From a virus, in IMG/VR virus record IMGVR_UViG_3300030098_004039, positions 1 to 26,671 of that record: a stretch of 26,671 nucleotides of DNA; one strand, written 5' to 3'. The translations under genes were made by a program, and so were the position numbers. Positions within the stretch are counted from its first letter, which is position 1; every line of letters starts with the position of its first letter. Shown here piece by piece: positions 3,929-19,098 of this stretch. The notes under the pieces are model-generated. The model did not search any database. It was not told the DNA's origin and saw nothing but the letters and a program-made list of their open reading frames with translations.

Positions 3929-4200
3929 GATACTTTACCACCCCATTCAGAATTAGGATCCAATCTCTCCATATAATTAAACCCACTACCTTCAGGGTAA
4001 ATATATTTTCCATCATCATCAAAGTTTGGACCTACTTTCTTTGCAGGGTATGTGGGATATGGTATCTTACCTGCTCTCATCTCTCTACCCTTTCTCTTTC
4101 TCATCTCATTACCAGTCTCATGGTCTTCAGGCATAGTAGGCCAAGAAGAACCTAGTATCTCCTTGATCATTTCTCTAGTGTAACCATTAGGATGACTCAT
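3925..4200 (-). CDS. Conserved-looking cytoplasmic protein, 91 aa
   Basis: A hydrophilic protein with no membrane segment: an N-terminal helix (YTREMIKEIL), a basic stretch around residues 33-46, and a Pro/Gly/Tyr/Asp-rich second half. It overlaps the end of purM by 14 bases and so is probably coupled to it. Function unknown. Confidence 0.65.
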   Translation of the reverse strand: MSHPNGYTREMIKEILGSSWPTMPEDHETGNEMRKRKGREMRAGKIPYPTYPAKKVGPNFDDDGKYIYPEGSGFNYMERLDPNSEWGGKVS

Positions 4201-5161
4201 AAACTTCTCCTATAACCCAAGACCTATATCCATTGTTAAAAATATAATCTTGAATACTTTCTACTCTATCTGGAGGAATCACTAAACAATATCCAATACC
4301 AAGATTAAATACATTCTTCATTTCTTCTGGTGGAATCTCACCAGCAAGCATAATCTTACTAAAGATATCTGGCATCTTCCATGAATTATAATCAACTCTT
4401 GCTTTCAATCCTTCAGGTAAACACCTTGGAAGATTCTCTGGTATACCACCACCAGTAATATTTGCCATACCATAGATGGGAAAATCATCTAGTAATTTAT
4501 CTACTAGAGGTGCATAGATTGTAGTGGCAGTAAGTAATTCTGGTGTGTCATCAAACTTTATCTTCTGTCTCCATAACATATCATTAATCAAACTATATCC
4601 ATTACTATGCAATCCACTACTTGCTATACCAATAATCTGATCACCCGATTTCATTCCTCTTCCATCAACTATCAATGATTCTTCTACAACACCCACGCAA
4701 AATCCAGCAAGGTCATATCCTTTAGAAAATCTACCATGTTCAGCAGTCTCTCCACCAAGTAATGCACAACCAGACATCTTACACCCATGTGCAATACCAG
4801 AAACTAATTGTTCTAATTGAAGATGATCAAGTTTAGGGCAAGAGATATAATCTAAAAAGAATAATGGTTCTGCACCAGATGTAATCACATCATTGACACA
4901 CATTGCAACAAGATCAATTCCAATTACAAAGTATGCTTCAGGATCATGTGCAATAGTTGCCATGTTTATTTTAGTTCCTACACCATCAGTACCAGAAACT
5001 AATATTGGTTTTTTATAACCTTCAGGGATTCTAATCTTACCATTAAAACCACCAAATCCACCCATGACTTCAGATCGATGAGTGGATTTTACAGTAGATT
5101 CAATATGATCTACGAATGCTCTTCCTGCTTCAATATCTACACCAGCAGTTTTATAGTCCAA
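4187..5161 (-). CDS. purM: Phosphoribosylformylglycinamidine cyclo-ligase (AIR synthetase) PurM
   Basis: PurM performs the ATP-dependent ring closure of FGAM to aminoimidazole ribotide in de novo purine synthesis. The N-terminal ATP/Mg loop SGTDGVGTK is at residues 56-64, GIDLVAMCVND at 81-91, LLGGETAEH at 134-142, SSGLHSNGYSL in the middle and ANITGGGIPENL in the C-terminal half. At 324 aa it is slightly short compared with ~345 aa bacterial homologues and appears intact. purM is a known cyanophage auxiliary gene thought to raise purine supply for phage replication. It lies in a dense run with plastocyanin, three bases from its upstream neighbour. Confidence 0.97.
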   Translation of the reverse strand: MDYKTAGVDIEAGRAFVDHIESTVKSTHRSEVMGGFGGFNGKIRIPEGYKKPILVSGTDGVGTKINMATIAHDPEAYFVIGIDLVAMCVNDVITSGAEPLFFLDYISCPKLDHLQLEQLVSGIAHGCKMSGCALLGGETAEHGRFSKGYDLAGFCVGVVEESLIVDGRGMKSGDQIIGIASSGLHSNGYSLINDMLWRQKIKFDDTPELLTATTIYAPLVDKLLDDFPIYGMANITGGGIPENLPRCLPEGLKARVDYNSWKMPDIFSKIMLAGEIPPEEMKNVFNLGIGYCLVIPPDRVESIQDYIFNNGYRSWVIGEVYESS

Positions 5162-5163
5162 GT

Positions 5164-5433
5164 TTATAAAGGAGGGTATTCTGATACCAATTCTACAACG
5201 TCTTCTTTCATTTGTCCACTACTAAATTCATCAATCAATTTTCTAACTTGTTTTCTATCAAGACCAGCAAGTTGTTCACAGTTTTCTAAACACTTAAGAA
5301 TACATTCTCTATCACTTATGGGTGGAGAAATCTCCCACCCTTGCTCATCATAATACTTCTTACCCTTAGTAACTTGTGCTTCTAAATGGGAAAGATCTAA
5401 CTTCTCAGATGGATTTGTATAACTATGAGACAT
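5164..5433 (-). CDS. Hypothetical cytoplasmic protein between petE and purM, 89 aa
   Basis: An acidic helical protein containing an aromatic patch (KYYDEQGWEISPP) and a helical segment with two cysteines (CILKCLENCEQL). No membrane segment. Its start overlaps the plastocyanin gene by 11 bases and its stop is two bases from the purM start, so it is embedded in this operon. Not recognised. Confidence 0.65.
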   Translation of the reverse strand: MSHSYTNPSEKLDLSHLEAQVTKGKKYYDEQGWEISPPISDRECILKCLENCEQLAGLDRKQVRKLIDEFSSGQMKEDVVELVSEYPPL

Positions 5434-5794
5434 GTATTACGCCTTTCATACCAGCACCTTCGTGTGGAGCACATTTAAAACTATAATCTCCTGCAGTAGC
5501 AAACTTAATATCCTGCGTCTCACCAGGAGTAAACATCAATGACTCTCTGGATAAACTTGCAAATTTATCAAAGATGATATTGTGAGGAGGTAATGCGTTA
5601 TTAACAAAGGTAACTGTCTCACCTGCATTGATTGTAACCTCATTGGGTTCAAAGACTAAGTTACCCTCGTAACCCATCTGTATCTCAGCAGCATATGCTT
5701 GTGCTGCTAATGTCATTGACAAGAATAATGAAGTCATCATTATTGTAAGTCTACTCATCCACCACATAATTTCGTGCTTTAAATTGTTTTTCAT
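5423..5794 (-). CDS. petE: Plastocyanin PetE
   Basis: Small blue copper protein that carries electrons in the thylakoid lumen from cytochrome b6f to photosystem I. All four copper ligands are present: His71 (PPHN), then Cys108, His111 and Met116 in KCAPHEGAGMKG. A signal peptide (hydrophobic MMTSLFLSMTLA, cleavage near AYA/AE at ~35) directs it across the membrane. The first ATG is used here; ATGs at residues 10 and 13 would give a more usual signal length. petE is a known auxiliary gene in some cyanomyoviruses. Confidence 0.95.
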   Translation of the reverse strand: MKNNLKHEIMWWMSRLTIMMTSLFLSMTLAAQAYAAEIQMGYEGNLVFEPNEVTINAGETVTFVNNALPPHNIIFDKFASLSRESLMFTPGETQDIKFATAGDYSFKCAPHEGAGMKGVIHVS

Positions 5795-5796
5795 AT

Positions 5797-6021
5797 TTAG
5801 TGCCCCATTGGAATACCAGATGCCAAGAGACGAGAGATGTTATTCACCTCTTCAGTTACACAGTAATCAACAAAATGAGGATGCTCCTTTAATGCAGGAA
5901 CATCCTCTTTGGATTTCTGTATTGCTTCATATGCACTCATTGCATATTCACATATCTCATAATGATGTAATTGATTATCGTGATAACCGACAGTGTAATG
6001 TCTTTGTTGAGTCAGGGGCAT
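5797..6021 (-). CDS. Small cyanophage-type protein, 74 aa
   Basis: The start MPLTQQRHY (ATG 6019-6021) is chosen because a late promoter lies 26 bases upstream; the frame extends to 6060, which would place its start upstream of the predicted transcript. The protein is rich in His, Tyr and acidic residues (GYHDNQLHHYEICEYA) and has no membrane span. I recall similar short proteins in T4-like cyanophages, but no function is known to me. Its stop is two bases from the petE start, so it heads the petE/purM run. Confidence 0.7.
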   Translation of the reverse strand: MPLTQQRHYTVGYHDNQLHHYEICEYAMSAYEAIQKSKEDVPALKEHPHFVDYCVTEEVNNISRLLASGIPMGH

Positions 6022-6046
6022 GATTCTTTCAATCCCATACTGCAAA

Positions 6047-6054
6047 TATTTATA
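6047..6054 (-). promoter_or_regulatory. T4-type late promoter (TATAAATA)
   Basis: The minus strand reads TATAAATA, an exact match to the late promoter element used with the T4-type sigma factor (gp55 family). The element lies 26 bases before the 5797-6021 start, leaving a short leader. No sigma70 -35 is visible at the right distance. It would drive the run down to 2249. Confidence 0.7.
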
Positions 6055-6118
6055 GCACACTATAGTAATTTTTGCCTATTAGTGTGTTGACTCAAAGACA
6101 CTGTGTTGTGTTCAATAC

Positions 6119-6583
6119 TTACATCTTATATGGTTCTTGTGGTTTTGTATCTGTAGTAATCTTAAGAGGTGCTTGCTCAATTCTAATAGTTTGAGTAGGA
6201 CCAGCCTTTGCTAAGATTGCTTCAATGTCTTTTGCAGTAGCAGGAGGAGGACCACCATTACCACCATTACCATTACCATTCATCTTCATAGTACCATCAC
6301 CTTTCTTAGAAGCGGTCTGAATTCCGAAGCTAGCTAAAACTCCTGTGAAAACTGAAGCTATAAAAGTTGGATCTATTTTTTGTTGTGGTACACCTGGAAT
6401 CGCCACATAATTAAGAGTCAATATTCCACCCGACCAGGCAAGAACGGTAATACGAACAAATGTACTAATGATCGCTGCTTGTTCTTCAGGATCAGGAAGG
6501 ATTGCATCTTTTGCTTTAGCGAAGAGACCTTTTTTCTTCTCTTCCTTTTTATCTTCCTTTTTATCTATTACTACTTCAGGCAT
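6119..6583 (-). CDS. Two-span membrane protein, possible holin-like
   Basis: 154 aa. A very basic/acidic N-terminus (Lys/Glu repeats at 8-18) is followed by two hydrophobic segments (~38-60 IISTFVRITVLAWSGGIL and ~70-90 FIASVFTGVLASFGIQ), then a Gly/Asn-rich linker (~100-113) and a hydrophilic C-terminus. Two spans with charged ends resemble class II/III holins in layout, but I cannot match a holin family and the C-terminal domain is long. A terminator hairpin separates it from the upstream gene. Confidence 0.65.
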   Translation of the reverse strand: MPEVVIDKKEDKKEEKKKGLFAKAKDAILPDPEEQAAIISTFVRITVLAWSGGILTLNYVAIPGVPQQKIDPTFIASVFTGVLASFGIQTASKKGDGTMKMNGNGNGGNGGPPPATAKDIEAILAKAGPTQTIRIEQAPLKITTDTKPQEPYKM

Positions 6584-6619
6584 AAAAATAAGGGTGACTA
6601 TTTCTATATAGCACCCTTA
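6584..6619 (-). terminator. Stem-loop with short T tract
   Basis: Arms TAAGGGTG (6589-6596) and CACCCTTA (6612-6619) form a perfect 8-bp stem. On the minus strand it is followed by five T (complement of 6584-6588) and then directly by the ATG of the next gene. It could be an intrinsic or partial terminator for the 6627-6878 gene, or a 5' structure controlling the next one. Confidence 0.55.
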
Positions 6620-6626
6620 ATGTTTT

Positions 6627-6878
6627 TTAAAATGTTGGAACTCCAAATCCACCAGAAGGTGTAGCAGGAGTAGCAGCTTGATCTGGTGTAATAGAAGGAG
6701 AAAGATCAGGAGCACCTAAACCAGCACCACCCAATCCTCCACCAAAACTACCAAGTGCTTTCTCGGTAACACTTTCTATGATGGCATCTTTATTAACGTA
6801 AACGTAAGCACCAGTGCCAACAACGGCAACAGATACAGCAGTAGACGCAAGAGCAAGTACATTAATTAACTTTTGCAT
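6627..6878 (-). CDS. Small single-span membrane protein with Gly/Pro-rich tail, 83 aa
   Basis: Residues 4-27 form a signal anchor (VLALASTAVSVAVVGTGAYV), followed by a short helix and a tail rich in Gly, Ala and Pro (GGGLGGAGLG, TPATPSGG). Cyanophages commonly carry a similar short protein beginning MQKLIN; this is memory, not a search result. It has its own late promoter 20 bases upstream. Confidence 0.65.
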   Translation of the reverse strand: MQKLINVLALASTAVSVAVVGTGAYVYVNKDAIIESVTEKALGSFGGGLGGAGLGAPDLSPSITPDQAATPATPSGGFGVPTF

Positions 6879-6897
6879 TGTTCTAATATAAGTAATT

Positions 6898-6905
6898 TAT
6901 TTATA
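6898..6905 (-). promoter_or_regulatory. T4-type late promoter overlapping a stop codon
   Basis: Exact TATAAATA on the minus strand, 20 bases upstream of the 6627-6878 start. The TAA stop of the upstream gene (6901-6903) lies inside the element. No convincing -35 precedes it. Confidence 0.65.
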
Positions 6906-7164
6906 GACACCTACCAGTATAATATGCTTTGAAGTAATTGGCAAGTCCATTGGTAGTATATTGCTTCTCACACCACTCATGAGCACATTGATATATTGCC
7001 GTTGCAGGAGATGTAGAACCAAAGTTCGCCATCAATAACCTTAAAGAATCCTGCCTTAATTTAAATTTTTCTTCTGTTAATTCTTTTCCTAACGTATCAA
7101 ATTCACTCTTACTAGTACCATTAGCTCTGGTATCAGTCTGATCGTAAGTGATGTTGTTAGGCAT
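6901..7164 (-). CDS. Hypothetical protein, 87 aa
   Basis: Hydrophilic N-terminal half with helical Lys/Glu content (KELTEEKFKLRQDSL), then a Cys-containing segment (YQCAHEWCEKQY) and a C-terminal YFKAYYTGRCL. No membrane span. A strong early promoter sits 22 bases upstream. Not recognised. Confidence 0.65.
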   Translation of the reverse strand: MPNNITYDQTDTRANGTSKSEFDTLGKELTEEKFKLRQDSLRLLMANFGSTSPATAIYQCAHEWCEKQYTTNGLANYFKAYYTGRCL

Positions 7165-7185
7165 TGTTCTGAAGAGTGTCTTCTT

Positions 7186-7213
7186 ATTATATAATAAATT
7201 TATATCTTGTCAA
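7186..7213 (-). promoter_or_regulatory. Sigma70-type promoter, consensus boxes
   Basis: The minus strand reads TTGACA (7208-7213), a 16-base spacer, then TATAAT (7186-7191). Both hexamers are perfect consensus. The -35 box contains the TGA stop of petF (7210-7212). It should drive the 6901-7164 gene, whose ATG is 22 bases downstream, early in infection with host RNA polymerase. Confidence 0.8.
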
Positions 7214-7503
7214 TAGAGATTATCTTCTTGTTCAGTTAGTAGAGTAAGTTCTTCTGAAGTAGGTTTAGCAACACAAGTAAGAACAAATCCTTGCTCCAAT
7301 TGGTCATCATCTAAAAAGAATTGATCTTCCTGATCAACTGTACCTTCTACAATTCTCATAGCACATGAAGAACAAGATCCTGCTCGACAAGAATAATTAT
7401 GATCTAAACCTGCCTCTTCTAATGCATCTAATATTGAAGTATCTTCATCACATTCAAATGTATCAGTTGATCCATCTGCGTTCTGTAAAGTGATAGTAGA
7501 CAT
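7210..7503 (-). CDS. petF: Plant-type [2Fe-2S] ferredoxin PetF
   Basis: 97 aa, the normal length for photosynthetic ferredoxins, which take electrons from photosystem I and pass them to FNR or to bilin reductases. The iron-sulfur cysteines are Cys39, Cys44 and Cys47 ([12 protein letters not shown]) and Cys77 (LTCVA). The surface is strongly acidic ([15 protein letters not shown]), as usual for binding partner enzymes. An extra Cys18 is not a cluster ligand in this family. petF is known in some cyanomyoviruses. Confidence 0.96.
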
Positions 7504-8122: not shown

Positions 8123-8260
8123 TTAGACTAAACCAGGAATGAGTTGCCCAGTGAAACTGTAGCTAGCAAAGGCTGCAACGCAACCAACGATAGCAGCAAT
8201 ACCATTCCACTTTTCAGCGATGGAGAAATCGACTTTGTTGTTAGTGTTTTCATTTGACAT
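8123..8260 (-). CDS. hli: High-light-inducible protein lacking the helix Arg, 45 aa
   Basis: The motif region is AEKWNGIAAIVG: the chlorophyll-ligand Glu and Asn are present, but the conserved Arg after NG is Ile. The C-terminus is TGQLIPGLV, matching the other copies. The start MSNENTNNK (ATG 8258-8260) shares a base with the upstream stop; an extension of this frame to 8428 runs across the two neighbouring hli genes and is not real. Confidence 0.85.
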   Translation of the reverse strand: MSNENTNNKVDFSIAEKWNGIAAIVGCVAAFASYSFTGQLIPGLV

Positions 8261-8373
8261 TAGTAAATACCTGGAATAAGATTGCCTGTTACTGCATAGG
8301 ATAGTCCAAAGAACCATACTCCTAGCATTGCTGCACGTCCTTGTGCTCTGAGGAAAATGTTTTCGTTTTTCAT
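8260..8373 (-). CDS. hli: Divergent high-light-inducible protein lacking the helix Glu, 37 aa
   Basis: The aligned motif is FLRAQGRAAMLG: the Glu ligand is replaced by Leu and the Asn by Gln, while the Arg is retained. The remaining helix and C-terminus (TGNLIPGIY) align without gaps to the neighbouring Hli proteins. It overlaps both neighbours by one base (TAATG at each end). By homology it should sit in the thylakoid membrane, but its pigment binding may be altered. Confidence 0.8.
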   Translation of the reverse strand: MKNENIFLRAQGRAAMLGVWFFGLSYAVTGNLIPGIY

Positions 8374-8480
8374 TAGAAGATACCTGGAATGATTTGACCT
8401 GTTGTTGCATAAGCACCGAACGCTGCAACGAATCCGATCATTGCCATCCAGCCATTAAACTTTTCTGCTTCTGGTGTCAT
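8373..8480 (-). CDS. hli: High-light-inducible protein with Arg-to-Trp change, 35 aa
   Basis: MTPEAEKFNGWMAMIG keeps the Glu and Asn chlorophyll ligands, but Trp replaces the conserved Arg; the C-terminus is TGQIIPGIF. AAAGGAG lies about nine bases upstream of ATG 8478-8480, the strongest ribosome-binding site in this cluster, so it leads the three-gene chain 8480-8123 joined by TAATG overlaps. Confidence 0.85.
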   Translation of the reverse strand: MTPEAEKFNGWMAMIGFVAAFGAYATTGQIIPGIF

Positions 8481-8569
8481 TGTTTTAAACTCCTTTCGTT
8501 AGATTTGTAATAGGGTTAGAAAGTGACCTCCACTGTTCTTAGTTGAGGTGGTGTAAGAGACCTTGGTAT

Positions 8570-8785
8570 CTAAAAGATACCTGGTATAACTGCTCCGAAT
8601 AGGATGTAGTTATGTACAAGTGCGAAGAAACCAATCATGGCTAAGCGACCATTAAGTTGCTCTGCATGTGGACCGTAGCCCTGATAGTCTTCAACGTACT
8701 GCATAGGTGGTTCAGAAGCAAACATGTTCTGCTTACCATATTCAGTTGTTGTGTACCTCTTCATACTGTTAGATGAAGTTGTCAT
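8570..8785 (-). CDS. hli: High-light-inducible protein, full motif, 71 aa
   Basis: A polar N-terminal half (~40 residues, Tyr/Gln/Ser-rich) is followed by AEQLNGRLAMIGFFALV, the complete Hli motif with Glu, Asn and Arg, and the C-terminus FGAVIPGIF. This is the only hli here with both a normal-length N-terminus and an intact motif. It is the first gene after the promoter at 8810-8838. Role: photoprotection and photosystem II repair during infection, from family knowledge. Confidence 0.93.
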   Translation of the reverse strand: MTTSSNSMKRYTTTEYGKQNMFASEPPMQYVEDYQGYGPHAEQLNGRLAMIGFFALVHNYILFGAVIPGIF

Positions 8786-13265: not shown

Positions 13266-13622
13266 TTAATCACCTTTAATAACTCTGTAACTATCCTCAT
13301 CAAAGTGTTGAGTAGAAAATTCAAACATATCAGTGTCTTCCAAAGCAAGCATCTGATGCCTCAACCCTCTATACACATGAAACTTATCTCCTCTTTCAAG
13401 TACCACCTCCTTTGCATTTTCTCTGTCATCATCTTCAGAGTACCATACGTGAAGTTTACCTTCTTCTAAGTAAAAAGTTTCATCCTTGAGAACATGATAA
13501 TGCCAAGAACATCTTTTACCTTTTATGAAGTGAAGAAGTTTGCCACAATACTCTTCAGTATTACAAATCCATTTCTCATATCCCCATCCTTTGGGGACAA
13601 TTTTAATTTCGGAAGAACTCAT
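13266..13622 (-). CDS. Small single-domain cupin, sugar-phosphate isomerase-like
   Basis: 118 aa. The cupin metal site is visible as His41 and His43 (SWHYHV), Glu48 and His89 (GLRHQ). The opening PKGWGYEKW resembles the cupin domain attached to mannose-6-phosphate isomerases and GDP-mannose pyrophosphorylases. A sugar-phosphate isomerase or regulatory binding role is likely but not proven. It overlaps the HAD gene by 20 bases. Confidence 0.75.
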   Translation of the reverse strand: MSSSEIKIVPKGWGYEKWICNTEEYCGKLLHFIKGKRCSWHYHVLKDETFYLEEGKLHVWYSEDDDRENAKEVVLERGDKFHVYRGLRHQMLALEDTDMFEFSTQHFDEDSYRVIKGD

Positions 13623-13941
13623 CAGAATTAATACCTTTATCGTCTATGAATAAATCTGCATGAGGTTTTCCCATAATTAATTCATGGTACTTACATCCCC
13701 ATTCTTTTAATTGCTCTTGCGTAAGTTCAAATAGAACTCCTTCAGCTTTTACAGATGCAATAGAATGAGGTTGATCAGAAAACCTACCCATTGCTCTTGC
13801 AGTAAAGTAGATAATGTAATCACCTTCATCATATAGTTTATTTACTTTATCTATACGATCTTGCCAAGGTTCTGCTTTGTGGTAATCTCTACCTACAGTC
13901 GGTGTGCAGATAGTGTTATCTATATCAATACAGTATCTCAT
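13603..13941 (-). CDS. HAD-superfamily phosphatase, capsule-type (BcbF-like)
   Basis: 112 aa. The HAD nucleophile motif CIDIDNTIC (Asp6, Asp8) is at the N-terminus, IIYFTARAMGR supplies the Thr/Arg motif, and LFIDDKGIN gives the C-terminal Asp-Asp. It resembles small phosphatases linked to capsule biosynthesis. In this cluster it might remove the C7 phosphate from heptose bisphosphate in place of GmhB; that is inference from its position next to the adenylyltransferase. Confidence 0.75.
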   Translation of the reverse strand: MRYCIDIDNTICTPTVGRDYHKAEPWQDRIDKVNKLYDEGDYIIYFTARAMGRFSDQPHSIASVKAEGVLFELTQEQLKEWGCKYHELIMGKPHADLFIDDKGINSDEFFRN

Positions 13942-13943
13942 AT

Positions 13944-14093
13944 TTAAATATTTAAAAGTGCAACTAAAGTATCATAAGGAATCCATGCAGGATCTTCATC
14001 TTTAACCTGAACCAATACTTCAGTGAATTGTTTATTCATAAATCTAGAATAGGTTTCTCTTGTATTTTGAATATAAGTATCTGGATTAATCAT
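13944..14093 (-). CDS. Small protein in the heptose gene block, 49 aa
   Basis: ATG 14091-14093, immediately after the adenylyltransferase stop, to TAA 13944-13946, two bases before the HAD gene start. It exactly fills the gap between two recognisable enzymes. The product is soluble and helical (QFTEVLVQVKDEDPAWIPYD, then TLVALLNI) with no Cys or membrane span. The family is unknown. Confidence 0.55.
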   Translation of the reverse strand: MINPDTYIQNTRETYSRFMNKQFTEVLVQVKDEDPAWIPYDTLVALLNI

Positions 14094-14516
14094 TTAATAC
14101 CTCTCTGGTAGATTTGGATATTTATAGTTAATTTTATTAATCACATTGGTAGAAGAATATCCACCTACTCTATTAAAAAATCTAACTTCTTTTGCATATT
14201 CTCTTCCTACTACATCACCATCCCTCCAATCACCTCCTACAATAAGAACATCGGGATTATAGAATTCAATCAATTGTTCCAATTCTTTTCTACTCCCAAA
14301 GACATGTACTTCATCAATATACTTGATTGCTTTTAACATTGCAACCCGATAGCAAAGATTGTTAATAGGTCTATCTGCACCTTTATCAAGTGCTACCTTT
14401 TCATCAGTATCAACACCAACAATCAATCTATCACCAAGTGCTTTGGCTGCCTTGAACAACTCAATGTGACCTGGATGCATTAGATCAAAGCATCCATTAG
14501 TCCAAATAATTTTCAT
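14094..14516 (-). CDS. Cytidylyltransferase-fold enzyme like the HldE C-domain (heptose-1-P adenylyltransferase)
   Basis: 140 aa. TNGCFDLMHPGHIEL carries the HxGH nucleotide-binding motif (His14, His17), followed by GDRLIVGVDTDEKV, RPINN, a VGGD motif (~93-96) and YSSTNVINKI, all in the order seen in the adenylyltransferase half of HldE. That half joins heptose-1-phosphate to ADP. A TagD-type or other sugar cytidylyltransferase is the main alternative. It lies downstream of HldD and the kinase, so the bifunctional HldE seems split into two genes. Confidence 0.85.
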   Translation of the reverse strand: MKIIWTNGCFDLMHPGHIELFKAAKALGDRLIVGVDTDEKVALDKGADRPINNLCYRVAMLKAIKYIDEVHVFGSRKELEQLIEFYNPDVLIVGGDWRDGDVVGREYAKEVRFFNRVGGYSSTNVINKINYKYPNLPERY

Positions 14517-14528
14517 TTTAAATAATCC

Positions 14529-15347
14529 TCAACCATAATAAAGAATACCATCAGTTAAATAATCCTCAACAGTTATAAAATGATAAGGTAACTCACCTAA
14601 ATTTAACCAATCCATATCAGCACAAGTATATGTTTGATACTTACCTTTTAAATGATCAGGAAATGGTATATATTCTATCTCACCATTATACTTGGTAGCA
14701 ATTAAATTAGCAACCTCTTGGAATGATATTGGATTACTTGTACCTAAATCATAAATCCCAGATGGTTTATTATTATTCAATACTATATCTACTATATCAT
14801 CCACACATATAAAATCTCTTTTAAATTTATCAGACCCTTCAAATAATTTTAATTTACCAGTCTCTTTAATCTGTTGAGTAAACTTCTGTACTGGACTTGC
14901 TTGATCTCCTTTATGGTCTTCACCCTCACCATACACATTGAAGTATCTGAATCCTTGAACTAATGAAAACTCATCCATATGATCCTGAACCCAGTAGTCC
15001 ATTATCACTTTGGATATTGCATAGTAATTAAGAGGGTTTATTGTATTAGAAGTATTACCATAAACAGATGCAGAGGAAGCATACTTAATTGGTATCTCAC
15101 GTTTAATTGCTTCTTGAAATATCCATTCAGTAAAATCAACATTAAAATGATGAAGTGCTTGAAGGTTTTTACAAGTAGTAGATGAGATAGCACCTTGATG
15201 CAATATCAATTCAACATCATTCCATTGATAGAAAGACTGTCTGAAATGCCAACTATCATTCTTCTCCACCTGTACAACTTCTTTACCTGTTAGTTTTTCA
15301 AGGAATTTCTTTCCAATAAAACCTTGAGCTCCTGTAAGAATAATCAT
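14529..15347 (-). CDS. hldD: ADP-L-glycero-D-manno-heptose 6-epimerase HldD
   Basis: Extended SDR fold with NAD(P) motif TGAQGFIG (5-12) and catalytic Tyr109/Lys113 (YAISK). Several HldD-specific stretches are present: LHQGAISSTT, FRYFNVYGEGEDHKG, KLFEGSDKFKRDFICV and IEYIPFPDHLKGKYQ, each closely matching the enterobacterial enzyme as I know it. HldD converts ADP-D-glycero- to ADP-L-glycero-D-manno-heptose for LPS inner core. 272 aa, against ~310 in E. coli, so slightly short. ATGA overlap links it to the kinase gene upstream. Confidence 0.88.
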   Translation of the reverse strand: MIILTGAQGFIGKKFLEKLTGKEVVQVEKNDSWHFRQSFYQWNDVELILHQGAISSTTCKNLQALHHFNVDFTEWIFQEAIKREIPIKYASSASVYGNTSNTINPLNYYAISKVIMDYWVQDHMDEFSLVQGFRYFNVYGEGEDHKGDQASPVQKFTQQIKETGKLKLFEGSDKFKRDFICVDDIVDIVLNNNKPSGIYDLGTSNPISFQEVANLIATKYNGEIEYIPFPDHLKGKYQTYTCADMDWLNLGELPYHFITVEDYLTDGILYYG

Positions 15348-16075
15348 AATAAACTAACTCCTCTTTGTTTAACTACTGTAGAAGCACACTTGTTTGCAAA
15401 CTTAATACTCTCAATTATATCACCTATCTTACAATACTCAACTACAAGTCCTGCCATAAACGAATCACCTGCACCAGATGCATCCTTAACATCAACCTTA
15501 TCAACCGAATACCTCTTACCTTTATATTCACATCCATCAGCTCCCATAGTATGAATAATCTTATTACTTATTTCAGGTACAAGAAATGGTTTTGAGTTTT
15601 GATATTCATAATCATTAATCTTAATATACTTTGCATATTGTATCCATTCCCCAAGAATCTTTTTAGTATCAACAAAAGTATTAGGATGCTTAAAACATAT
15701 CTCATTAATATCATCTTCAGTTAAGAATCCTTTATCATAATCAGAGACCACAATAAGATCATACTCATCATAATCAATATGATTTAGATTAATTCTTGGA
15801 ATTGTTTGTGTGGTATCTACTCTAAAGAATGTATGATTACTATTATGATGAACATATCTTGTTTTGGTAATATCATACCAATTATGATTAGTTAAAAGAT
15901 CACATTGATCATGTAAACTTTTAATATTTCGATGAACATTTTTTGCCATACCAGGATTCTCAGTCTGATCCTTCATGTTTAATACTGGTACGGGTACGTC
16001 AGGACATAATCTTAATGCATCACAATACACAAAGACATCTCTGGAACTATCACCAACAACTAAAACTTTTTTCAT
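15344..16075 (-). CDS. PfkB-family kinase like the HldE N-domain (heptose-7-P kinase)
   Basis: 243 aa. VVGDSSRDVFVYCDALRLCP, then DVPVPVL and ENPGMAKNV, parallel the HldE start (GD...D, SPEAPVPV, PGGAANV). VVSDYDKGFLT corresponds to SDYGKG. GAGDSFMAG (from residue 201, Asp204 as catalytic base) is the PfkB signature. HldE-N makes D-glycero-D-manno-heptose-1,7-bisphosphate. It is shorter than the ~320-aa kinase half, with a trimmed middle. Linked by ATGA to both neighbours. Confidence 0.83.
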   Translation of the reverse strand: MKKVLVVGDSSRDVFVYCDALRLCPDVPVPVLNMKDQTENPGMAKNVHRNIKSLHDQCDLLTNHNWYDITKTRYVHHNSNHTFFRVDTTQTIPRINLNHIDYDEYDLIVVSDYDKGFLTEDDINEICFKHPNTFVDTKKILGEWIQYAKYIKINDYEYQNSKPFLVPEISNKIIHTMGADGCEYKGKRYSVDKVDVKDASGAGDSFMAGLVVEYCKIGDIIESIKFANKCASTVVKQRGVSLL

Positions 16076-16872
16076 CTTCCAATATGAGATTTATAAAACT
16101 CCTTAACATCTTCAGGAGGATGTGGTAAGAATGCTCTAAGTAACCAATCATTCCATCCAGTAAAATTAGGAGATAATTTAATAAACAATCTATCTTTTGG
16201 TAAAACTTTAGCAGCAAGATGAGCACCAAAAGAATCGCATCCAGCATAATAATCACAAGATGCTGCTAAGTCAACAATGTATTTAATAGAAGGTTTAACT
16301 AAAAGTTTATGGTCTGTAACAGGAACATCAATTTCTTTATCGGATATTACTATTACTTTTGCACCCTTTTCCTTAGATAAATTCTCAACAAATTGCCAAT
16401 CATCCATTGTAATAGAAGCAATATCTGATCTAGGTCTTGTAGAAGTTGGATAATGAAAGAGTATATAATTATCAAAATCAACTGGATTTGCATTCTTAAT
16501 AAAAGAAGATCCAACATAAGGACGGGTAGTATCTTCAAAACATCCCACAGCATTTATGGCCTGAACTTCATCTTCTTTAAGTCCAAATAATTTTAAACCT
16601 ACTTGATAATTCTTTGGAAAATCTGGTCTAAAATGCCAGAAAGGAATAGCAATAGGATCAAGAGATTCCATTGCTTTCTTTCCATCTTCATCATCCAAAG
16701 TATAATGTGCTTTTAAATTAGGATAATCTGGATTATTCTCTAACAAAGGAATTAAAACATGACCAAATCTACAAGCCCAATAAAGTTCACTAATAGATTC
16801 CTTTTCTTCAGGAGTAAGAATGGCATCTAGAAATACCATATCTCCAATTCCTACAGAAATATAAGTTTTCAT
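16072..16872 (-). CDS. GT9-like (heptosyltransferase-type) glycosyltransferase
   Basis: 266 aa. The C-terminal YAGCDSFGAHLAAKVL resembles the donor-binding G-x-D-S/T-G-x-x-H-L-A-A block of LPS heptosyltransferases (GT9). The N-terminal ISVGIGDMVFLDAIL is like the G-D glycine loop of that GT-B fold. Its position directly before the ADP-heptose genes suggests that it uses ADP-heptose. The match is partial and no other diagnostic residue is clear. Confidence 0.65.
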   Translation of the reverse strand: MKTYISVGIGDMVFLDAILTPEEKESISELYWACRFGHVLIPLLENNPDYPNLKAHYTLDDEDGKKAMESLDPIAIPFWHFRPDFPKNYQVGLKLFGLKEDEVQAINAVGCFEDTTRPYVGSSFIKNANPVDFDNYILFHYPTSTRPRSDIASITMDDWQFVENLSKEKGAKVIVISDKEIDVPVTDHKLLVKPSIKYIVDLAASCDYYAGCDSFGAHLAAKVLPKDRLFIKLSPNFTGWNDWLLRAFLPHPPEDVKEFYKSHIGR

Positions 16873-16876
16873 TAAA

Positions 16877-18085
16877 TTAATACCTCGACTTTCTTTCTAT
16901 AATCATAGCAGGTTTTCCACTTCTACGAGCAGCAAGTAAACAACTAGTAACTCCTGCACCATTTACTGGATCTAGAACTGGGAAGCTAACTGCCTTTCTA
17001 AAGACTTCAGTAAAATCTTGTGAATGTGTGATACCAGAATAAAAAGGACCAGCATCAGCAGTGACTGCTCTAATAATAATAGGACACTTAAACTCACCAT
17101 GAGATATTCTTTCTATCTTATCAATATGATTAATGATTGCGTCAGCAGCAACCAACATAAAATCATGTCGTTCATAATAAAGAACTGGCAAAAACCCCTC
17201 AAAAGACATACCAATAGCAAGACCTGCCATGAGGTTTTCTGCTACTGGAGTTTCCAACTTTTGATCATCAGGAACATTCTTTAATGTACCTATAGCATTT
17301 CCATACTTAACATTATATCCAATAAAAATAGCACCCAACTTACCCAACTCAGTCATAGAATCAATCATTGCATCTTTATAAGATGACTCTGGTGCAACCC
17401 AATCCTTATCCAAATAACTCATTATATTTGGTTCATCTAAGGGGGGAAAATATTCATTATCTGTTTTCTTGACTGCCTTAGATAGGTCAATCATTCCTGG
17501 CTTGCGACAGTGGGGATAAGTACATTCATAATGATACTTAATAACACGGTTAGAATCCCAAGTTGGATGTGCTGTCTTACCCCAACGGTCAGCATTACTT
17601 GCTTCACACGATCTGTCATTGCTTTCTATGATAAAAGTACAAGGTAAATCAAATCCATCAGCATAACGAACTGCCTCTGAAAGGTGTCCATTATCCTCTG
17701 TACCATCACCAACAAAGCACCAAACCTTTTGGTCCGATCCTTTACGTTTCAATGCCCAGGCAATCCCTGCAGCAATAGCAGGAGTACCACCAATGATAGC
17801 AGAAACAAAAAAGTTTCTTTCCCTATCATAGATGAACATACTGCGTCCATTCTTAATTCTATCTTCTACAACATCAGGTGGCACACCGTGTAGAAGAGCA
17901 TGATAATGATTTCTATGACTGGATATTACATAATCACCTTCCTTTATATCCTTAAAAATATCTATTAACTGTTCCTCATTTCCTCCTGACAAATGAAAAA
18001 GGAATGGGAGTTGGTTATCCATATAAAGATCACCAATATGATCCTCAAAAGCAATTAATTCTTCTTTAGTCCAAACCTTTCTCAT
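16877..18085 (-). CDS. Compact thiamine-diphosphate enzyme: E1-alpha fused to a truncated E1-beta-like domain
   Basis: 402 aa. Residues 1-200 resemble the alpha subunit of 2-oxoacid dehydrogenase E1: SSHRNHYHALLHGVPP, then the thiamine-diphosphate motif GDG (126-128) to Asn156-Asp157. Residues ~230-400 resemble the pyrimidine-binding part of E1-beta, with catalytic-type Glu283 (TPVAENLMAGLAIG) and THSQDF. The usual C-terminal domain of E1-beta is absent. A Cys/His patch (YECTYPHC, 186-193) is unusual. No lipoyl-transferase partner is nearby, but an alcohol dehydrogenase gene overlaps it by one base. A C-C bond-forming or cleaving step on a sugar or small keto acid is plausible; substrate unknown. 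Confidence 0.82.
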   Translation of the reverse strand: MRKVWTKEELIAFEDHIGDLYMDNQLPFLFHLSGGNEEQLIDIFKDIKEGDYVISSHRNHYHALLHGVPPDVVEDRIKNGRSMFIYDRERNFFVSAIIGGTPAIAAGIAWALKRKGSDQKVWCFVGDGTEDNGHLSEAVRYADGFDLPCTFIIESNDRSCEASNADRWGKTAHPTWDSNRVIKYHYECTYPHCRKPGMIDLSKAVKKTDNEYFPPLDEPNIMSYLDKDWVAPESSYKDAMIDSMTELGKLGAIFIGYNVKYGNAIGTLKNVPDDQKLETPVAENLMAGLAIGMSFEGFLPVLYYERHDFMLVAADAIINHIDKIERISHGEFKCPIIIRAVTADAGPFYSGITHSQDFTEVFRKAVSFPVLDPVNGAGVTSCLLAARRSGKPAMIIERKSRY

Positions 18086-19098
18086 TACTCCTCTCCTATA
18101 TTAATCATTATTCTACCAGCATCTCCCGATCTAAGCAAGTCAAATGCATCATTAATTCGATCAAGAGTAAAGGTATTAGTATGCAAACTTTCATATTCTA
18201 ACAATCCTCTATCCGCAAGAGCAATATATCTTGGAATATCTTTTTCAGGATCTGTTCCACCACCTTGTGTTGCTCTAACAGATTTACCAGTACCATCAAA
18301 CATAGAGACTGCATTTGGAATTTCTACCTCTGCACCTGGTCTTGGTTGACCAACAAGAATTAATCTTCCACTTGGTGCAAGTTTATCATATGCTGCACTA
18401 ATTACTGGAGGAATACCAGTGGTGTCAATAATAACATCAACCTTCTGTAGAATATCAGATACATTATAAACAAATGAATCTGCTCCCATTAAAGTACTAA
18501 GTTCAGACATCTTCTCACTAATATCCACAGCATAAATTGGAGATGCACTCTTCATCTTTGCTGCTTGAATTAAATTAAGTCCTACACCACCACACCCAAC
18601 GATAGCAATTGACTCTCCAAACTTAAGATCACATTCATTATCAATGATACCTAATGCAGTTGTTAAAGAACAACCAAGCATTGCTGCTAATACTGGTGAA
18701 GTACTTTGTGGGATAGAAGTCACTCTATTTTCAGAAACAATAGAGTATTCACTAAGAGTTGTAACCTTACCACTTGATATAATTTGATCATCTAAAATAT
18801 ATTCTGGAAAAGGAGATTCAAAACCAGATCCTGGTCTCCAATGCATCACTACCTTGTCACCTACCTTGACAGTATTGACACCCAATCCTATCTGCTCAAC
18901 GATGCCACAACCCTCATGTCCCATTAAGTGGGGAAGAAAACGTGCGTTTCCCTTGTGACCCCTGATTTCGTGCAATTGAGCACCACACAGACCGCTTACA
19001 AGAACTCTTACAAGTACTTGCCCAATCTTTAGATCAGTAGGTTTTACATCTCTAACTGCTAAAGGAGCATCAATCTCTTCTAATACTACTGCTTTCAT
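18085..19098 (-). CDS. Zinc-type alcohol dehydrogenase (MDR family)
   Basis: 337 aa with the MDR layout: catalytic zinc ligands Cys38 (SGLCGAQ), His61-Glu62 (GHEGCG) and Cys143 (LGCSLTTA), then Rossmann motif GCGGVG (~168-173) and an acidic residue (AVDIS) favouring NAD+. The four-cysteine structural-zinc lobe is missing. It oxidises or reduces a hydroxyl group, probably on a sugar or on the product of the adjacent thiamine-diphosphate enzyme, to which it is coupled by TAATG. Substrate not determinable. Confidence 0.88.
   Translation of the reverse strand: MKAVVLEEIDAPLAVRDVKPTDLKIGQVLVRVLVSGLCGAQLHEIRGHKGNARFLPHLMGHEGCGIVEQIGLGVNTVKVGDKVVMHWRPGSGFESPFPEYILDDQIISSGKVTTLSEYSIVSENRVTSIPQSTSPVLAAMLGCSLTTALGIIDNECDLKFGESIAIVGCGGVGLNLIQAAKMKSASPIYAVDISEKMSELSTLMGADSFVYNVSDILQKVDVIIDTTGIPPVISAAYDKLAPSGRLILVGQPRPGAEVEIPNAVSMFDGTGKSVRATQGGGTDPEKDIPRYIALADRGLLEYESLHTNTFTLDRINDAFDLLRSGDAGRIMINIGEE

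Follow-up and report, generated by a model that had tools for sequence, protein, structure and literature searches.

Complementary motif losses in two coupled viral hli genes suggest an asymmetric Hli heterodimer

Two adjacent and overlapping hli genes for light protection in a marine cyanophage, g3 (hli04) and g4 (hli05), encode small Hli proteins that have lost complementary parts of the ExxNxR motif. They were found in IMG/VR virus record IMGVR_UViG_3300030098_004039, of which a stretch of 26,671 nt was analysed (hereafter the window), with the hli region on the minus strand. We incline, by a modest degree, to the view that their products would form an Hli heterodimer of two dissimilar halves in which a single Glu-Arg bridge is retained. 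The residue pattern is real and conserved, and the heterodimer is a plausible if unproven explanation of it, better founded now than in the first-pass annotation of this DNA. That annotation had coupled g3 with both of its neighbours, g2 and g4; the partner assignment is corrected here to g3-g4.

Hli chlorophyll-binding proteins normally pair with themselves, and the family is related to the ancestors of plant antennae. Glu-Arg pairs are thought to fix chlorophyll in Hlip dimers too. In LHCII, Glu65 is the ligand of Chl a602 and is stabilised by Arg185 (PMC3008699). The functional sites of the motif are Glu at position 0, His or Asn at +3 and Arg at +5 (PMC3020630). Pigment binding by Hlips requires dimerisation through ExxNxR, and in LIL3 with a mutated motif dimerisation is nearly abolished (PMC8617258). 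Hlip heterodimers are known (PMC12142464), and solved HliD chains are deposited in the PDB (9sas, 9sau). Throughout, residues are numbered from the Glu position of ExxNxR (0), with the Asn ligand at +3 and the Arg at +5.

The hli genes are labelled g1 to g4 in transcription order (Table 1); genes of the g3/hli04 type are called A, those of the g4/hli05 type B and those of the g2 type W. Translation and alignment bear out the first reading of the Glu/Arg positions in g1 to g4 as E/R, E/W, L/R and E/I, across 30 residues that align without gaps from the motif to the C-terminus, and the second pigment ligand of g3 is altered as well. The TAATG coupling that had been reported is present at both junctions, and the A-B stop-start overlap is retained in nearly all relatives. 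All four Hli genes of the original list are genuine, and a fifth, g5, had been overlooked.

Table 1. The hli genes of the window and their overlaps
Feature	Description	Position in window	Strand
g1	Hli with intact E, N and R (EQLNGR), 71 aa, long N-terminal extension	8570..8785	-
g2	W-form Hli (EKFNGW), 35 aa	8373..8480	-
g3	A-type Hli = hli04 (LRAQGR), Glu to Leu, Asn to Gln, Arg kept, 37 aa	8260..8373	-
g4	B-type Hli = hli05 (EKWNGI), Glu and Asn kept, Arg to Ile, 45 aa	8123..8260	-
g5	Fifth Hli (HPYW...ERWNGRLAMVG), 33 aa, E, N and R intact, short helix	7776..7877	-
g2/g3 overlap	TAATG stop-start	8371..8375	-
g3/g4 overlap	TAATG stop-start	8258..8262	-

All five proteins match PHROG 178, 'high light inducible protein' (E 4e-22 to 2.7e-6), which marks g1 to g4 as real Hli genes rather than chance open reading frames. 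Against Pfam PF00504, g1 and g5 score below its cut-off, and the search gave no match for g2, g3 or g4. The proteins are 33-71 aa long, and each has a single hydrophobic stretch after the motif, read from the sequence as one predicted transmembrane helix. The full ExxNxR, which is both the chlorophyll-binding and the dimerisation motif, is present in g1 and g5 and incomplete in g2 (without R), g3 (without E and N) and g4 (without R); by sequence, g2 to g4 are Hli homologues with incomplete motifs. The fifth gene is the equivalent of P-SSM2 hli06, a highly conserved form (HPYW..ERWNGRLAMVG, shortened helix) that lies downstream of the hli cluster in many phages. Beside the cluster, at 4187-7503 on the minus strand, are AIR synthase (purM-like), plastocyanin (petE) and ferredoxin genes, typical auxiliary genes of cyanomyoviruses. 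A run of sugar genes at 13266-19098 on the same strand (cupin, cytidylyltransferase, NAD epimerase, PfkB kinase, a thiamine-type E1/transketolase protein and zinc dehydrogenase) possibly serves a nucleotide-heptose pathway.

The pair is far from being peculiar to this record, and its relatives number in the hundreds among phage and Prochlorococcus sequences. The genes g2-g3-g4 are one-to-one orthologues of hli03-hli04-hli05 in P-SSM2 and P-SSM7, with identical order, overlaps and residue changes, and they correspond to gene clusters T4-GC 267, 270 and 271; in g3-g4 we find the coupled A-B genes with E-to-L and R-to-I that characterise hli04-hli05 (T4-GC 270/271). When IMG/VR contigs and phage records were surveyed, with entries that share sequence merged, R-to-I hli05 lay directly after E-to-L hli04 in 77 of 77 untruncated copies, four further copies being cut by a contig end. 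A search of 50,697 phage records gave close hli04 matches in 14, and close hli05 matches in the same 14 and no others. Identical residues are found in 75 different hli04 and 79 different hli05 DNA sequences, so that the pattern is not due to chance. More generally, an A gene adjoins 93 of the 93 untruncated viral B genes that have lost the Arg, as against 16 of the 59 that have kept it (43 without; Fisher p 7e-25, uncorrected for shared ancestry). Three host genes that group with B carry Trp, have no A neighbour and look like the W style, for which A is evidently dispensable. The idea of obligate pairing through one bridge therefore stands as a reasonable proposal for g3-g4, given their constant adjacency and an asymmetry conserved across hosts and phages, and falls for g2, the W form of which occurs alone.

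Comparison of 138 unique A-B pairs, the motifs being read from translated DNA with a profile built from the same data, brought out a set of residue rules. In every one of the 138, the +5 residue of A is Arg, and B combines Glu at 0 with Asn at +3. The remaining positions vary: A0 is L, E, D, F, N, I, Q, T or V, A3 is Q, I, N, F, L or V, and B5 is I, Y, R, Q, L, A or K. On a tree built leaving out A0 and B5, A0 changed 12 times, A3 8 times and B5 10 times, while the kept positions A5, B0 and B3 did not change at all (0, 0, 0). Exactly one of A0 and A3 is D, E, N or Q in 138/138 pairs, never both and never neither. Strict charge balance between A0 and B5 was considered and rejected, as E-Y, E-L, N-K and I-R pairs occur. 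Within the phage pair, position 0 of hli04 is Leu in 75/75 distinct sequences, written in four synonymous codons, and position 5 of hli05 is Ile in 79/79, in three; nearby aliphatic positions interchange I, L, V, M and F freely. Since Leu and Ile stay fixed despite this synonymous turnover, the new residues look selected and not merely unconstrained.

These rules can be accommodated in a simple mechanism. The Glu of B would pair with the Arg of A and fix a chlorophyll, as Glu-Arg pairs do in LHCII, and the reciprocal pair of A Glu and B Arg would be replaced by a hydrophobic Leu-Ile contact. B would give two chlorophyll ligands (Glu and Asn) and A one, a Gln or Asn at +3 in most phages and a Glu or Asp at 0 in most hosts, so that a dimer is predicted to bind about three chlorophylls rather than four. 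Judged by the ligands retained, the pair would be expected to bind carotenoid along with chlorophyll, like dimers of the HliC/HliD type. Coupled translation would let A and B be made together, presumably in a fixed ratio. An A-A dimer would be left with two unpaired Arg and a B-B dimer with two unpaired Glu; as a B-B dimer needs the Arg, the model predicts what the B genes show, a loss of that Arg (except to Trp) only beside A. Going further, and more tentatively, we consider it possible, though rather doubtful, that marine picocyanobacteria and their phages share a dedicated asymmetric Hli heterodimer with one invariant Glu-Arg bridge and three ligands rather than four, the third at 0 in hosts and at +3 in phages, and with a phage Leu-Ile contact that disfavours homodimers.

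Related pairs are found in the hosts. In Prochlorococcus loci the genes run W (E,N,W) - A (E,I,R) - B (E,N,Y or L), and both the A-B order and the stop-start overlap are the same in hosts (ENW-EIR-ENY) as in phages. In other host pairs, B = E,N,R accompanies either A = D,I/F/L,R or A = E,I,R, and B = E,N,K accompanies A = N,I,R. At L498, L506, L507 and L509, host A-B pairs have Asn or Tyr at A0 and Lys replacing Arg in B. Homology between phage hli04-hli05 and the host pair is indicated by their common gene order, by the AA-GC segment in B and by the NK-I with which A begins, and the phage pair possibly derives from the Prochlorococcus W-A-B cluster, the direction of transfer being our inference. 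A DNA-pattern search of host genomes for a close hli04 relative returned none, only distant A-type genes with Glu, Asp or Asn at 0. Host loci were mostly retrieved with A or W queries, so that such clusters are over-represented and host co-occurrence figures are biased.

Not all of these pairs favour the heterodimer. Hosts keep the Glu of A though B has lost its Arg (E-Y, E-L), and N-K, N-R, I-R and V-R pairs leave a charge unpaired. Among the phages, the genome of podovirus NATL1A-7, taken whole, has only an E/R Hli and an E-to-Q Hli, with no R-minus gene; in P-TIM40 (E-to-I) and in four contigs, an A gene with Ile or Val in place of the Glu adjoins an Arg-bearing B gene; and eight loci have an E-minus A gene without a B gene. 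The expectation that E-minus and R-minus forms always co-occur thus holds for hli04-hli05 and fails as a general rule, which is rejected by NATL1A-7, P-TIM40, L444 and L451. The QRANGR Hli of NATL1A-7 is unannotated and lies directly after the E/R Hli (L350 1501-1611; GU071102.1 4796-4906). A separate class of E-minus Hli ends in YTxFxYF, is coupled to a W gene without B (L013, L177, L180, L196, L217, L247 and others) and has Gln, Asn, Phe, Val, Leu or Trp at the Glu position; these short proteins look A-like, but having no B gene they were kept apart from the A type.

E-minus A genes that lack a B or adjoin an Arg-bearing one count against the heterodimer and fit the foremost alternative, which we nevertheless regard as unlikely: that the losses were independent, through relaxed constraint after duplication, that the overlap keeps the genes together and that their products pair promiscuously with other Hlips of phage or host. 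The same phages and hosts do make many other Hlips with intact motifs, and tight gene linkage alone could carry A and B together. Few independent losses can be counted on the tree, roughly three class changes for the acid of A and roughly two for the Arg of B, with fewer than six independent pairs, so that the correlation between losses in A and B has no independent statistical weight. Relaxation, however, leaves unexplained the constant Arg of A, the constant Glu and Asn of B and the single ligand position of A, nor does it agree with a Leu and an Ile that are fixed against synonymous codon turnover.

The W form raises another alternative, the original assignment, in which both R-minus neighbours, the W form g2 and the I form g4, serve as alternative obligate partners for the E-minus g3. 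The W gene lies directly upstream of A in most phage clusters (65/70 untruncated L-form loci) and in many hosts, and E-minus phages without B nearly all have W directly upstream. The g2 protein is identical to P-SSM2 hli03 (PSSM2_274), and a W-form query matched 520 phage records. The form turned up in nearly all the phage clusters retrieved and is common among Prochlorococcus loci, often with no E-minus gene present; in podovirus P-SSP7 it is the sole hli. In five contigs it does not adjoin A, an ordinary E/R Hli preceding hli04 and the W gene following hli05, and NATL1A-7 combines an E-minus gene with no R-minus gene. As the W-A-B order already exists in hosts whose A keeps the Glu, W adjacency looks inherited. 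Being found alone in phages and hosts, the W form is rejected as an obligate partner, and its existence without A means that Arg loss does not in itself demand such a partner. We therefore hold this alternative to be improbable; g2, like g1, probably functions as an ordinary Hlip. A contig labelled as a Euryarchaeota MAG (L329, PAZU01000039.1) also has a W-form hli, which shares 94% identity with the phage form; the contig is probably cyanobacterial or phage DNA wrongly assigned. That A and B act as monomers or bind other membrane proteins (such as phage or host D1, CP47 or chlorophyll synthase) with no Hli-Hli dimer seems very improbable, for although known Hlips dock to ChlG, Ycf39 and CP47 (PMC12142464) and A-type helices have an incomplete pigment site, the conserved residues belong to the dimer-and-pigment motif and A-B stop-start coupling is kept in hosts and phages.

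A matched g3-g4 pair would bear on the question why Prochlorococcus phages carry up to six tiny hli genes. Were the asymmetric heterodimer real, extra hli genes would be matched halves and not mere copies, and half of a symmetric Glu-Arg zipper would have been replaced in nature. The residue rules would then allow the choice of partners and the holding of chlorophyll by Hlip and LHC helices to be tested directly and cheaply by mutation.

In the open-access literature we found no description of the A-B asymmetry, most subscription papers on phage hli genes lying outside this search, and the P-SSM2 and P-SSM7 records annotate hli03-hli04-hli05 just as high light inducible proteins, silent on asymmetry. 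Close to the phage pair is the Prochlorococcus W-A-B cluster, which shares its order, stop-start coupling and class-specific residues; it differs in that its A has kept an acid (or Asn) at 0 and has a hydrophobic residue at +3, and its B has Tyr, Leu, Lys or Arg at +5. The plant proteins OHP1 and OHP2, relatives of Hli with one helix, also form a heterodimer that binds chlorophyll in PSII assembly, according to work cited in PMC9916820; unlike A and B, both have E..N.R (EIWNSR and EISNGR in the table of that paper), and their genes do not overlap. The HliC/HliD, HliA/C and HliB/C dimers of Synechocystis resemble the proposed pair in being unlike dimers of one-helix ExxNxR proteins that bind chlorophyll and carotenoid (PMC12142464). 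HliC and HliD are both described with an intact motif, giving four motifs per dimer (PMC12142464), and HliA reads EKLNGR, whereas g3 and g4 each lack part of the motif and lack it in complementary fashion.
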